From NCBI GenBank assembly GCA_015654695.1, contig JAATGJ010000009.1:1-39424 (forward strand): DNA of 39,424 nt. Direction: 5' to 3'. The translations under genes were made by a program, and so were the position numbers. A model generated the notes under the pieces. That model was given only the letters and a program-made list of their open reading frames with translations. It made no database searches and was not told the origin of the DNA. Of this stretch, positions 21,011 to 27,436 are shown in pieces (positions within the stretch are counted from its first letter, which is position 1; the number at the start of each line of letters is the position of its first letter). Origin of the DNA: Chitinophagales bacterium (GTDB lineage: Bacteria > Bacteroidota > Bacteroidia > Chitinophagales > Chitinophagaceae).

Positions 21011-21685
21011 TCAATGCTGCTCTACTAATCCTGCTTTTACTGCATACATTACCAGGCCGGCCATTGATTTGGTACCTGTCTTTGTTTTCAGTTTATCGCG
21101 GATAGCTTCCACTGTACGCGGGCTGAGGTCAACGATGTCGGCAATTTCTTTGGTACTTTTTTCATCGCACATCAGCTTCAGGATGGTGATCTCTTTATCG
21201 GTGAGCTGAACATCTGCCGGCATATTCGATTCAACGGTACGTTTTGTACGCAGACCACTAAGCAATGCTTTATTAGTAAGGTCGTTGAAATAAAAATCCT
21301 GCTCATACACACCGCGGATAGCCTCATAGATCATTTCCGAACCTGACTCTTTAGTGAGGTAGGAATTAGCGCCAATCTCCATCATACGTGAGATAACGGA
21401 ATGATCATTGTGCATGGAAAGCATGATCACTTTTACATTTGGATAGAGTTTCTTGATCTCAGGTAATGTAGCCAGGCCGTCCATAATAGGCATCTGTATA
21501 TCCAGCAGCACAACATCGGGCTGGATATGGCGAAGGAGATTAAGCAACTGCATGCCATTTTCTGCTTCGGCTACCATTTGAATATCCTTACGGCTGGAAA
21601 GGGAGGTTTTAACTCCGGTACGGAACAATGTGTGATCATCCGCGATGGCTACTTTAATAACTGCGTTAGTTTCGTGATTTTTCAT
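21011..21685 (-). CDS. NarL/LuxR-type response regulator 1
   Basis: 224 residues. Receiver domain (11-130): acidic pocket D16-D17 in VAIADDHTLFRTG, phosphoacceptor D62 in VVLLDIQMPIMDG, and K near 112 in YLTKESG. C-terminal LuxR HTH (about 158-220): LTDKEITILKLMCDEKSTKE and VDLSPRTVEAIRDKL. It is clearly paralogous to the regulators at 23598 and 26786: all share the linker segment (Y-Y/F-F-N-x-x-x-N-x-x-L-L) and an AGLVMYAV-like end. No kinase is adjacent; the only kinase in the window is at 25832. Upstream and on the opposite strand lies sRNA-like element 1, in the same arrangement as for regulator 2. Confidence 0.95.
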   Translation of the reverse strand: MKNHETNAVIKVAIADDHTLFRTGVKTSLSSRKDIQMVAEAENGMQLLNLLRHIQPDVVLLDIQMPIMDGLATLPEIKKLYPNVKVIMLSMHNDHSVISRMMEIGANSYLTKESGSEMIYEAIRGVYEQDFYFNDLTNKALLSGLRTKRTVESNMPADVQLTDKEITILKLMCDEKSTKEIADIVDLSPRTVEAIRDKLKTKTGTKSMAGLVMYAVKAGLVEQH

Positions 21686-21919: not shown

Positions 21920-21950
21920 TTGTACACATAGCGATGTGGATATATTTTTG
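21920..21950 (+). promoter_or_regulatory. Promoter of sRNA-like element 1
   Basis: TTG at 21920-21922 and TATTTTTG at 21943-21950, with a 20-nt spacer, fit the Bacteroidota -33/-7 consensus. The same boxes and spacing occur at 24510-24540 before element 2, within an almost identical flank (TGCTCTTGTACACATAGC). Confidence 0.65.
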
Positions 21951-21956
21951 CTTCAG

Positions 21957-22090
21957 AAAGTTGATTGTTAAGCGATGATTCGTTTATCCTACTCATCCAA
22001 TGTCCAAACCGTCCAGAAATTTATTTCCAATTCCTTTGAAAAACCAAACGACACTCTCCGCATCCAATCAACTTTCTCTTTTTTCTTTTT
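21957..22090 (+). ncRNA. Structured small RNA candidate, copy 1
   Basis: About 134 nt from a predicted start 7 nt after the -7 box to a T-rich tail. The 5' end AAAGTTGATTG (21957-21967) pairs perfectly with the 3' end CAATCAACTTT (22065-22075), followed by a terminator-like T-rich run (22076-22090). Further pairs GCG/CGC and CGTTT/AAACG can extend the closing helix inward. Inside is a 43-nt A/C-rich core (22006-22048) that is about 35/43 identical with copy 2 by eye; the remaining interior differs. No open reading frame of note. I cannot match it to a known RNA family; a 6S-like RNA is one alternative. It points away from response regulator 1, whose start lies 271 bp away. Confidence 0.6.
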
Positions 22091-22224
22091 CCCTAGTAAC
22101 CGTTTTTAATTCCCTTGATCGTATGAAGAGCTGAAAACCGAACTGACCGGCCCGTGATTAACCGTTAAGCCTTGTTCCTGTGAAATATATCCTGTAAAAA
22201 TCTTTTTTCTCATAACAGTAACGT

Positions 22225-22251
22225 ACCCCTGCCCAATGGAGGGGTTTTTTT
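22225..22251 (+). terminator. Isolated plus-strand terminator
   Basis: Stem ACCCCT / AGGGGT around a 9-nt loop, followed by seven T. No coding gene precedes it on this strand for over 500 bp, so it may end a transcript from the sRNA promoter at 21943 or an unseen small RNA. Confidence 0.65.
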
Positions 22252-23597: not shown

Positions 23598-24260
23598 TTA
23601 TTCCAGCAGCTTATTCCTCATCGCATACATCACCAGTCCTGCAATGGTCTTGGCGCCTACTTTTTGCTTCATATTCTGGCGTATGGTCTCAATAGTGCGG
23701 GGACTCAGAAATACTTCTTTGGATATTTCCTCTGTTGTTTTGTCCTCAGCTATCAGTTTTAATATGCGTATTTCTTTTTCAGAAAGCTTTACCGGGTTAG
23801 GATAAAACTGGCGGACTGTTTTTTTATGCTGTAATTTCAATAATACCGCTTTATTCACCAGTTCATTGAAGTAGAAATCATCGTTCATGCAGGTAAGGAT
23901 GGCCTGGTAGATCTCTTCAGGGTCCGTGGTTTTGGTAAGGTAGGCATTAGCCCCCATCTCCATCATCTTCGTGATCATTTCCTGGTCATCATACATTGTA
24001 AGCACTATTATCTTCAATGCCTCATACTCCTTGCGTATAATGCTAATGGCGTTGATCCCATCTATTTCCGGCATACGGATATCCATCAATATCACATCGG
24101 GTAGTTTCAGCTTCAGCTTATGCATCAGGTCCTTGCCGTCTTCGGCCTCCCAGAGTATTTTCAGGTACTCCTTATCCCGCAGGGCCATACGGATACCATC
24201 CCTGAATATTTTATGGTCATCGGCAATCGCTACTTTAATCAGCTGGGTGTTCGCATTCAT
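23598..24260 (-). CDS. NarL/LuxR-type response regulator 2
   Basis: 220 residues. Receiver: D14-D15 in VAIADDHKIFRDG, phosphoacceptor D60 in VILMDIRMPEIDG, K near 110 in AYLTKTTD. LuxR HTH: LSEKEIRILKLIAEDKTTEE and VFLSPRTIETIRQNMK. Paralogous to the regulators at 21011 and 26786. Its upstream region carries sRNA-like element 2 on the opposite strand, 285 bp away, mirroring regulator 1. No adjacent kinase on this strand; the kinase at 25832 might phosphorylate it. A methyltransferase gene follows downstream. Confidence 0.95.
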   Translation of the reverse strand: MNANTQLIKVAIADDHKIFRDGIRMALRDKEYLKILWEAEDGKDLMHKLKLKLPDVILMDIRMPEIDGINAISIIRKEYEALKIIVLTMYDDQEMITKMMEMGANAYLTKTTDPEEIYQAILTCMNDDFYFNELVNKAVLLKLQHKKTVRQFYPNPVKLSEKEIRILKLIAEDKTTEEISKEVFLSPRTIETIRQNMKQKVGAKTIAGLVMYAMRNKLLE

Positions 24261-24509: not shown

Positions 24510-24540
24510 TTGTACACATAGCCCAGCGGGTATATTTTTG
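24510..24540 (+). promoter_or_regulatory. Promoter of sRNA-like element 2
   Basis: TTG at 24510-24512 and TATTTTTG at 24533-24540, 20-nt spacer, identical in boxes and spacing to the promoter of element 1. Confidence 0.65.
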
Positions 24541-24544
24541 GTTC

Positions 24545-24687
24545 AAGTTGATTGGCGGGGATTAGCACTTAAATATCCGATATCCTGAATCTCTCGTCGC
24601 AGACGAGGGAAAAACCGTCCAAAATCTGATTTCCAAATCCATTGAAGACCAAAGCAAAGTCCGGTGTCAATCAACTTCTTTTTTTAT
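24545..24687 (+). ncRNA. Structured small RNA candidate, copy 2
   Basis: About 143 nt. 5' AAGTTGATTG (24545-24554) pairs with 3' CAATCAACTT (24668-24677), followed by a T-rich tail to about 24687. The conserved A/C-rich core is at 24612-24653. Just before the core is an internal hairpin absent from copy 1: arms CTCGTC / GACGAG around GCA (24593-24607). Conservation of promoter, closing stem, core and T-tail with a variable interior is what two functional RNA copies would show. Family unknown to me. It points away from regulator 2 and towards the 7-TM/kinase genes. Confidence 0.6.
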
Positions 24688-24866: not shown

Positions 24867-24995
24867 TCCTTTACTGTACTGCCTTTCACCTGATTATATA
24901 AAATACTACTCTAAAACATCCTGTAGAATTAGCCCCCGCTATAGGCAATTTTTACGCTACAAATCGATTTGATTAGGCTCAAAAAAGTTACTGTT

Positions 24996-25064
24996 ATGAA
25001 AAAAAATGTAGCAAGACAAGGAAGTCCGATTGATGATACCTCAATTTTTATTTGGGTAGATTGA
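24996..25064 (+). CDS. Possible 22-residue peptide gene
   Basis: ATG to TGA, 22 codons. The product begins MKKNVARQGS, continues PIDDT and ends SIFIWVD: a basic start, then acidic and hydrophobic residues. It lies 62 bp upstream of the 7-TM membrane protein gene and after the palindrome at 24960-24971, on the same strand. No Shine-Dalgarno is visible, which is normal in this phylum. Such a short frame can occur by chance; its location next to a membrane sensor, kinase and regulator is the only reason to consider a signalling peptide. Confidence 0.3.
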   Translation: MKKNVARQGSPIDDTSIFIWVD

Positions 25065-25105: not shown

Positions 25106-25128
25106 TATATTTGGAGCAAATTCCAAAT
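25106..25128 (+). promoter_or_regulatory. Promoter -7 box and overlapping inverted repeat of the 7-TM gene
   Basis: TATATTTG at 25106-25113 matches TAnnTTTG. The start codon is only 13 nt further, so the mRNA would have a very short leader. An inverted repeat (ATTTGGA 25109-25115 / TCCAAAT 25122-25128) covers box and start codon and could be an operator. No standard -33 box at the right distance. Confidence 0.45.
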
Positions 25129-25810
25129 GTCAGAAAAGCTTTTTTTACATTTATTGAACTTCTCTTTTCTTGTTCCACTTATTTTTTTGGTCGCCAACTT
25201 TAAAAAAATAAGAGTCTCTCCTATACTAATAGTGGTTACTTCCTATCTAATTCTTTTTTTTCTACTAAATTTTTTTTTCAAAGAAATCAGACATTTCACA
25301 GGTAAAAAACTCTACTACTTTATTTATACACTTTTTGAATATTTGACATTTACGTACCTGCTTTCTTATAACATTAGCAATAAAAAATTTCGCTGGTTAG
25401 TAATTACCCTATCGGCAGCATTCATCTTATTTATGATAGTATTTTACATAAAAGCACCAATAGGAAGGATAGATTCTATACCCGTTGGAATAGAAACGAT
25501 AATCATATTGATTTATATATTCTATTTTTTTTACGATCACTTCAGGCAATTAAGCAGCAAATATATTTATGAGTACACTTCCTTTTGGTTTGTAATGGGA
25601 ATACTGGTTTACCTTGGAGGTACTTTTTTCTTTAATATCCTGGCAAACAGCTTAGATCAGGAGCACTATGATAAATATTTTTACCTTTCTTACTTAGGAG
25701 ATATAATAAAAAATCTTTTATTTACTGTAGCCATAATTCAACATGCACGAACTTCTCACAGTAATGAAAAATTAAAAAATACCAACTTGCCTTATTTAGA
25801 TATAACTTAA
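25127..25810 (+). CDS. Seven-transmembrane membrane protein, putative sensor partner
   Basis: 227 residues, almost all hydrophobic; I do not recognise a named family. Seven likely membrane helices at about residues 8-24, 31-50, 62-80, 88-108, 120-140, 152-172 and 185-203, with short loops and a polar C-terminal tail. Very A+T-rich, T-rich codons, partly because of the hydrophobic content. The histidine kinase starts 21 bp after its stop, and that kinase has only one membrane helix and no sensor domain. Inference: the 7-TM protein provides the input part of a split sensor, comparable in layout to fused 7TM-kinase proteins. No direct evidence for a ligand. Confidence 0.75.
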   Translation: MSEKLFLHLLNFSFLVPLIFLVANFKKIRVSPILIVVTSYLILFFLLNFFFKEIRHFTGKKLYYFIYTLFEYLTFTYLLSYNISNKKFRWLVITLSAAFILFMIVFYIKAPIGRIDSIPVGIETIIILIYIFYFFYDHFRQLSSKYIYEYTSFWFVMGILVYLGGTFFFNILANSLDQEHYDKYFYLSYLGDIIKNLLFTVAIIQHARTSHSNEKLKNTNLPYLDIT

Positions 25811-26739: not shown

Positions 26740-26768
26740 TTTGAACCTTCTTAAAACCATTATCTTTG
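26740..26768 (+). promoter_or_regulatory. Candidate promoter of response regulator 3
   Basis: TTTG at 26740-26743 and a perfect TAnnTTTG box TATCTTTG at 26761-26768; 17-nt spacer, slightly short. The start codon follows 18 nt after the box. It suggests that the regulator can be made separately from the kinase. Confidence 0.5.
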
Positions 26769-26785
26769 AGCGTTATCTGATAACT

Positions 26786-27436
26786 ATGGGAATAATAAAA
26801 GTCGCTATTGCCGACGATCATAAAATATTTCGCAAAGGAGTGATCCTTTCCCTGCGGCCATTTACCAATTTAAAATTTGTACAGGAAGCGGAAAATGGTG
26901 ATGAACTTCTTAATGGACTGGCCCAGTCAGAACCGGATGTCATATTGATGGACCTGCGGATGCCTGGCAAAGACGGTATAGAAGCTACCAAGATCGTCAG
27001 TAAACAATACCCCAATATCAAAGTACTGGTATTAAGTATGTACGAAGATGAACGCTTTGTCTATCACCTGATGGAAAATGGCGCCAACGGTTATTTATTA
27101 AAGAACGCCGAGCCGCAGGAAATACGCAGGGCGATCATGGAAGTATTTGAAAAAGGATACTACCTGAACAATTTTGTCAACCGGATATTGCTGAAAAAAT
27201 CCCATTCACGCCAGAAAGTAGTTCCTTCCCTCAACAGCGAGATCACCTTAAGCGATAAAGAAAAAGATGTGCTCCGTTTTATCTGCATGGAGTTCACAGC
27301 GCAGGAAATAGCCCAGAAGATGGAGATCAGCCCCCGCACAGTAGAAGCCATAAAAGACAGGCTGATGGAGCGTTTTGGCAGTAAGAATACGGCAGGACTG
27401 GTATTCTTTGCGGTGAAGAATAACCTGATAGATTAG
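26786..27436 (+). CDS. NarL/LuxR-type response regulator 3
   Basis: 216 residues from ATG 26786, chosen because it matches the paralogs (MGIIKVAIADDHKIFRKG); a longer frame to 26741 needs a TTG and would cover the promoter. Receiver: D10-D11, phosphoacceptor D56 in VILMDLRMPGKDG, K near 106 in YLLKNAEP. LuxR HTH: LSDKEKDVLRFICMEFTAQE and MEISPRTVEAIKDRL. It is the likely direct partner of the kinase at 25832. Ends 10 bp from the convergent recJ. Paralogous to regulators 1 and 2, but without an sRNA-like element upstream. Confidence 0.95.
   Translation: MGIIKVAIADDHKIFRKGVILSLRPFTNLKFVQEAENGDELLNGLAQSEPDVILMDLRMPGKDGIEATKIVSKQYPNIKVLVLSMYEDERFVYHLMENGANGYLLKNAEPQEIRRAIMEVFEKGYYLNNFVNRILLKKSHSRQKVVPSLNSEITLSDKEKDVLRFICMEFTAQEIAQKMEISPRTVEAIKDRLMERFGSKNTAGLVFFAVKNNLID

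Follow-up and report, generated by a model that had tools for sequence, protein, structure and literature searches.

A multicopy small RNA family in Chitinophagaceae with one member that may repress a pheromone-like peptide gene

What does the DNA free of protein genes in front of a LuxR-type response regulator gene of a Chitinophagales bacterium encode? The window analyzed here is a 39,424-nt stretch of contig JAATGJ010000009.1. A first-pass annotation of its sequence had proposed an undescribed small RNA gene, here called RNA1, upstream of the regulator gene RR1, and a diverged second copy, RNA2. We consider it fairly probable that RNA1 belongs to a multicopy small RNA family under two-component control and that this member represses a pheromone-like peptide. 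The features of the locus are collected in Table 1.

To our knowledge, neither peptide-based cell-to-cell signalling nor a Csr/Rsm-like RNA switch has been described in Bacteroidota, and we found no paper describing such a system by title and abstract start in the open-licence literature. If the reading is true, a single locus would hold a signal peptide, its likely receptor, a kinase, and a silencing RNA, each of which is testable. The conserved motif of the RNA family could be used to capture a new RNA-binding protein, and the seed described below points to short genes that are easily overlooked by gene callers.

Table 1. Features of the RNA1 locus and the neighboring peptide locus (positions in the window)
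Feature	Position	Strand	Basis
RR1, LuxR-type response regulator, divergent from RNA1	21011..21685	-	Response_reg and GerE domains
Upstream element ATTACTTAGTCCCCAGTAAA, a form of the inverted repeat TTTAC-N10-GTAAA	21868..21887	+	sequence checked
RNA1 promoter: TTG, 20 nt, TATTTTTG	21920..21950	+	conserved over 86 RNA genes
RNA1, probable whole transcript, ~296 nt	21956..22251	+	ends inferred from sequence
RNA1 5' domain with P1, P2, and open loop	21957..22075	+	folding, helix comparison
Closing stem P1	21957-21967 with 22065-22075	+	11/11 pairs
Inner helix P2	21980-21985 with 22046-22051	+	folding, helix comparison
Open loop words TCCAATGTCC and ACCGTCCAGAAA	21996-22005 and 22008-22019	+	folding, sequence
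Antisense seed TCATAACAGTAAC	22210..22222	+	13 nt, exact reverse complement of 24987-24999
Probable rho-independent terminator of RNA1	22225..22251	+	by inspection; absent from terminator-scan list
RR2, LuxR-type response regulator, divergent from RNA2	23598..24260	-	domain search, synteny
RNA2 (copy 2) 5' domain	24543..24679	+	covariance-model match, E = 6.1e-13
Target site GTTACTGTTATGA, spanning the short-ORF start codon	24987..24999	+	sequence
22-aa ORF MKKNVARQGSPIDDTSIFIWVD, candidate pheromone-like peptide, unlisted	24996..25064	+	variable homologs in same slot
MEM, membrane protein with at least 5 hydrophobic segments, possible receptor	25127..25810	+	23-49% identity across loci
HK, histidine kinase (HisKA_3, HATPase_c) with one hydrophobic segment	25832..26656	+	domain search
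RR3, LuxR-type response regulator	26741..27436	+	domain search

Extent and structure of RNA1

The first-pass annotation had described a full promoter, an exactly pairing 3' end, and a T-rich tail, and all of these are in the sequence. We found TTG at 21920-21922 and, after 20 nt, TATTTTTG at 21943-21950. The arms AAAGTTGATTG and CAATCAACTTT pair at 11 of 11 positions to form the closing stem P1, and a T/C-rich tail follows the second arm. The annotation knew no family with this core, and Rfam 15 gave 0 matches at gathering score in the window. Nothing credible appeared between 21800 and 24800 at E values up to 10, and the loci of six relatives also gave 0 matches at gathering score. Together with many homologs, compensatory changes in the inner helix P2, and a strongly conserved promoter, this supports the proposal that the RNA1 locus is an undescribed small RNA gene.

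The proposed bounds of the transcript stood in part. The sequence of the predicted start, AAAGTTGATTG, is present, but the coordinates given for the gene cover the 5' half only. The covariance-model match (21956-22076) corresponds to this 5' domain. Reading relatives side by side, we found that the sequence is conserved beyond the stem as CCGTTTTTAA and then ATTAACC..., and in many relatives TTTCATAACAGTAACG lies immediately 5' of a GC-rich hairpin and a T run. The window has ACCCCT (22225-22230), which can pair with AGGGGT (22240-22245), and seven T at 22245-22251. Because relatives conserve the hairpin and T run there, RNA1 probably ends at ~22251 rather than at ~22090. The stem and T-rich tail are disfavored as the gene end, since conserved sequence runs on to the better terminator. 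With its 9-nt loop, this hairpin exceeds the loop limit of the terminator scan (8) and is absent from the scan's list.

Two other ways of reading the core were rejected. The sense-strand ORF that begins at the ATG of TCCAATGTCC has in-frame stops in relatives such as those at L009 and L018, as judged by eye. An RNA on the minus strand would be GGA-rich and thus CsrB-like, but the promoter and the terminator both point to the plus strand.

We found that copy 1 folds with a z score of -3.92 (0/200 shuffles as good) and copy 2 with a z score of -2.15 (5/200 shuffles as good). The opposite strands fold too (z = -4.11 for copy 1 and -1.16 for copy 2), and folding alone therefore does not indicate the strand. 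Over the entire 302-nt stretch, stability is unremarkable (z = -0.56); in the folding model, clear structure is limited to the RNA1 5' domain.

Of the 51 collected RNAs, 46 have a closing stem in which each of the 10 tested positions pairs. The collecting pattern demanded the promoter box and the 5' stem arm, and the 3' end was picked for best pairing, so the constancy of the 5' arm is partly by construction. Among 24 RNA1 sequences, 94.7% of the cells of P1 and P2 are paired, compared with a mean of 91.3% after shuffling, and the helices show 8 two-sided changes versus a shuffled mean of 1.9, a number to be read beside two slid controls that reach 9 and 10 two-sided cells, no fewer than the helices themselves. 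The covariation score is 0.158 versus 0.115 for shuffled sequences and at most 0.076 for slid versions. Compensatory changes are seen in P2, which folds and sequences give as TCGTTT/AAACGA, TCGTCT/AGACGA, TGCC/GGCA, TCGC/GCGA, TCACC/GGTGA, and CTTGTT/AACAAG. The loop is mostly open and holds the commonest words of the family, ACCGTCC (76/86 RNA genes) and ATCCAAT (70/86).

An RNA family beside response regulator genes

The second copy proposed by the first-pass annotation is real. It has diverged and keeps the promoter (TTG at 24510-24512, TATTTTTG at 24533-24540), the stem arms (24545-24554 and 24668-24677), and the CCGTCCA / TTTCCAA core. In all, the covariance model gives five matches in this genome, copy 2 among them. 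A third true copy, RNA3, lies elsewhere in the genome (G000:C181:5129-5278, minus strand; loci L004 and L152). RNA3 is longer than the other copies and carries four ACCGTCC and four CCAANTCC words in ~500 nt. A search of its neighborhood with the window's proteins revealed no response regulator. Weak BLAST matches on C165, C140, and C61 of the same genome were rejected as copies; they have neither stem arm and are not among the five model matches. C165 carries two TGAAAAACCA words, and C61 carries two TATTTTTG words.

We built a covariance model from 46 of the 51 collected RNAs and found homologs (E <= 0.001) in 66 of 195 genomes from the family; these cover 36 of 101 genera, and many of the best matches are training sequences. 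Genomes hold up to 9 matches, the number reached in G051. Two RNA genes stand in tandem within 2 kb at L153, L156, and L167 (G051, G045, and G131). Genomes drawn from across the order gave matches (E <= 1e-4) in 21 of 248, all of them Chitinophagaceae, the host's family; for a draw from across the class the figure was 3 of 295, again all in the host's family. Filters are stricter in large searches, with loss of weak matches. BLAST with a 186-nt region matched 6 of 7 genomes of the genus, the window's own included. In the five relatives, identity was 86-91% across nearly the entire query, and the seventh genome, which gave no match, is 64% complete. The same query matched 56 of 195 family genomes at E <= 0.01, the weakest perhaps by chance. 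Carriers include Terrimonas and Puia, which belong to Chitinophagaceae, as well as Flavihumibacter, Niastella, Flavitalea, Longitalea, Paraflavitalea, and Pseudoflavitalea.

The RNA is often found beside RR1. Of 80 named RR1-type loci, 69 entered the RNA search, which gave 49 matches spread over 37 loci; one match is weak and on the reverse strand. Of the 69 loci, 33 have an RNA whose start is 236-314 nt upstream of RR1, and 4 have one beside RR2 only. The model search detected no RNA in 32 of the 69, some of which are incomplete; loci of Segetibacter, Ferruginibacter, Flaviaesturariibacter, and Chitinophaga are among these.

Upstream of the RNA genes, a promoter block is conserved over ~85 nt in 86 genes that were collected with the promoter box in the pattern. 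In 64 of the 86, with at most 2 substitutions, the repeat TTTAC-N10-GTAAA stands at a fixed site, 83 nt 5' of the end of the -7 box, and a LuxR-type response regulator presumably binds it. In model searches with RR1 and RR2, GacA-type models come second, and with RR3 third, all below the cut-off. Between the promoter boxes of many RNA genes there is also an imperfect inverted repeat, TGTCCACA..TGTGGATA (21924-21942 in the window), whose strict form is present in 15 of the 86.

PMC2375449 describes several Rsm RNAs with repeated unpaired motifs, a palindromic upstream element, and LuxR-type regulators. To that extent, the GacA-controlled RsmX/Y/Z RNAs and CsrB are like our family in their multiple RNAs, repeated motifs, upstream palindrome, and LuxR-type regulators. 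The differences are that the conserved loop words of our family are TCC-rich, not GGA, and that RNA1 bears an antisense seed. We found CsrA in 0 of 39 relatives, with a control that was detected in 3 of 14 genomes. Because CsrA is absent in 39/39 and the words are TCC-rich, the family, judged from sequence, is not a member of the Csr/Rsm RNAs.

The RNAs could nevertheless be chiefly sponges that titrate an RNA-binding protein with repeated single-stranded motifs, as CsrB or RsmX/Y/Z do. A GacA-like regulator would then switch on several RNAs, and the 3' seed of RNA1 would be a lineage-specific addition. The copy number, the common upstream repeat, the two conserved loop words, their repetition in RNA3, and the sub-threshold rank of the GacA-type models all favor this, but CsrA is absent from the 39 relatives, the binding protein is putative, and the loop words could equally be seeds for mRNAs. 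We regard a sponge as possible, if doubtful, and it is compatible with the reading that we prefer, in which RNA1 represses a peptide gene.

Complementarity between RNA1 and the start of a peptide gene

Between RNA2 and the MEM-HK-RR3 genes lies the 22-aa ORF that RNA1 would repress. Within the genus the peptides differ widely except at their ends (..SIFIWVD, ..SIFVWED, ..GIFVWGE, ..SIFIWED, and ..GVFIWVD), with HK 95-96% identical. Compared across loci with the window's proteins, MEM shows 23-49% identity and HK 70-96%. A variable peptide and receptor beside a conserved kinase is a pattern familiar from peptide pheromones and their receptors. Because the peptide and MEM are variable beside a conserved HK, we infer that the three resemble a pheromone, its receptor, and its kinase. 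Searches of Pfam and NCBIfam with the peptides and MEM returned nothing useful.

In a sister group the same slot holds larger precursors of ~120-140 aa, with a conserved body (..LAQPGCVGI..YNA..KTLVYVG..) and a variable, often Trp-rich tail (L115, L117, L157, L159, L160, L161, L166, and L173-L179). The two that we tested had no Pfam or NCBIfam match above the cut-off. Shortly 5' of the peptide start in the window is the palindrome CAAATCGATTTG (24960-24971), and relatives have other palindromes at the same place (AAATCTGATTT, GAATCGATTC, and GAATATTC, found by eye). This suggests a binding site or a hairpin.

The RNA1 seed sits directly before the terminator, outside the bounds first proposed for the gene, and by sequence complementarity can pair with positions -9 to +4 of the peptide mRNA. 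We found no such seed in the RNA2 5' domain. The pattern GTTACTGTTATGAAA occurs at 34 places in the 195 family genomes, and its reversed control occurs at 6. We classed 15 of the 34 as RNA1, 15 as short-ORF starts in the peptide slot, and 4 as others (L054, L056, L062, and L065). In the window's own genome, 8 places match TTTCATAACAGTAACG with at most 2 mismatches, below the control's 12; RNA1 and the peptide start are the only places with at most 1.

The longest Watson-Crick match between RNA1 and the peptide start of the same genome is 13-19 nt in 18 genomes and only 13 nt in the window's own species. In 16 of the 18, it was reached by 0 of 2,000 shuffles; 1 shuffle reached it in G000 and 2 did in G108. 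These tests were made after the motif had been seen. We then tried a prediction on G174, which has the seed and no exact target match. Its MEM-HK locus was found via the kinase, and the slot holds MNKGNGRKVFTIEGDTIFSWED with a matching start. The named loci with a seed and a readable slot (L191, L196, L238, and L254) all have the target motif.

Overall, all genomes that carry the seed and have a readable slot (23/23) also have a variable short ORF that starts with the matching motif; several of these genomes share a genus. The detector used for the later of these genomes allowed one mismatch to the motif, so later target detection was not fully blind. The motif was present in 0 of 16 seed-less genomes with a readable slot, G065 being nearest with CTTACGCTGTTATG. 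Both counts cover genomes with a readable slot and an identified RNA1; unreadable slots (G004, G100, G147, G044, and named loci without MEM) and genomes without an identified RNA1 (G054, G157, G034, G091, and G125) are omitted. As far as sequence can tell, complementarity to the translation start is conserved. The folding model predicts that the seed of the window's RNA1 is mostly paired, with a mean unpaired probability of 0.35 versus 0.53 for the whole RNA; over 21 RNA1 sequences the seed mean ranges from 0.30 to 0.87.

Some genomes pair differently. G027 lacks the usual seed, and 16 nt just after its RNA1 stem match positions -17 to -2 of the slot ORF. This is the longest match on either strand of its 19.9-kb locus and is of low complexity. 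G045 has a larger precursor in the slot, and 20 of 22 positions pair, one of them G-U (0/200 shuffles); this is the best pairing in its 9-kb locus by a small margin (35.5 to 34.0). In G108 the flanks have changed, and a 23-nt run that includes G-U pairs is retained. In G009, 11 of 12 positions next to the terminator pair, and 56 of 200 shuffles were as good. G009 and 12 further seed-less genomes gave no convincing pairing, and the antisense role would therefore be confined to part of the family. A pairing by the core motif in G198 (0/200 shuffles) was rejected, as other places in its locus match better. Of nine RNA2 pairings tested with the slot, only that of G157 stood out (1/200 shuffles, equal to the shuffle maximum).

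In type I toxin-antitoxin systems such as TisB/IstR-1, an RNA is complementary to the start region of a short ORF. By analogy, the 22-aa ORF might encode a toxic peptide that RNA1, as an antitoxin, counteracts by pairing across the start codon. The ORFs in G027 and G123, whose assignment is uncertain, are short and hydrophobic, as this would require. Most of the peptides, however, are by inspection charged with only a short hydrophobic end; they are highly variable, and the neighboring kinase is not. The gene neighborhood with its two-component system is also fixed, and the sister group has the larger precursors in this slot. A toxin-antitoxin pair is thus improbable.

The complementarity might instead be a by-product of a shared DNA site, GTTACTGTTATGA being bound by a protein in opposite orientations at the two places. 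Opposite orientation would yield the same complementarity, but every target has the motif across its start codon, RNA1 has it immediately 5' of the terminator, and the family genomes show no further conserved place for it. Moreover, the G027 match uses a different part of RNA1, and G108 retains its pairing through G-U. We consider such a site quite improbable.

RNA1 as a possible brake on a peptide signal

We return to the reading that RNA1 represses the peptide gene. RNA1 would be a regulatory RNA of ~296 nt, one member of a multicopy family, which a LuxR-type regulator probably switches on via TTTAC-N10-GTAAA. Its 3' end would pair over the peptide start and block the start of translation. 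Because the pairing lies at the start of a peptide that, with its putative receptor and kinase, is pheromone-like, RNA1 may act as a brake, or negative feedback, on the peptide signal. The open loop common to the family (TCCAAT, CCGTCCA, and TCC..GAAA) would have another partner, most likely an RNA-binding protein.

A wider version joins this reading to the sponge. The output of the pheromone system would be 1-9 paralogous RNAs that titrate a putative RNA-binding protein via their TCC-rich words, a Gac/Rsm-like switch free of CsrA, and that in many genera also silence the pheromone gene over its start codon. We offer this version tentatively, as a plausible one that could well be wrong. A 6S-like RNA that binds RNA polymerase is very improbable: the long closing stem around a large open region would suit it, but there are 0 Rfam matches, the open region holds conserved words and lacks a terminal stem, and the genome has five matches. 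A 6S-Flavo search of the genome was empty and says little, because its controls were empty too.

Among the small RNAs of Bacteroidota, PMC11697453 describes FopS and GibS of Bacteroides thetaiotaomicron, a multicopy family that pairs near start codons; FopS has a single-stranded 5' seed and a terminator and acts on susC-like mRNAs. On that description, FopS is nearest in kind to our family, with which FopS and GibS share multiple copies in Bacteroidota and pairing, predicted in the case of RNA1, near start codons. Structure and target differ, RNA1 opening with a closing stem and having a 3' seed and a candidate peptide target.

Outside this phylum, RNAIII and the Qrr RNAs are regulatory RNAs tied to two-component or peptide signalling. 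RNA1 differs from these in that it faces the gene of the putative signal peptide itself; the sequence relation was compared via Rfam only. The ComX-ComP-ComA system has a short variable peptide with a Trp near its end, a membrane receptor, a HisKA_3 kinase, and a LuxR-type regulator. The window's locus likewise has a short variable peptide with a Trp near the end, a membrane protein, a HisKA_3 kinase, and a LuxR-type regulator, and differs in that the candidate receptor and the kinase are separate proteins.

The order of these genes is kept across relatives as RR1/RNA1 and RR2/RNA2/peptide/MEM/HK/RR3. In several relatives, a further kinase and a further LuxR-type regulator, more distantly related and 25-35% identical to HK and RR3, stand as a pair between RR1 and RR2 (L082, 13180-14600; L088, 10926-12300; and L103, 9617-11200).
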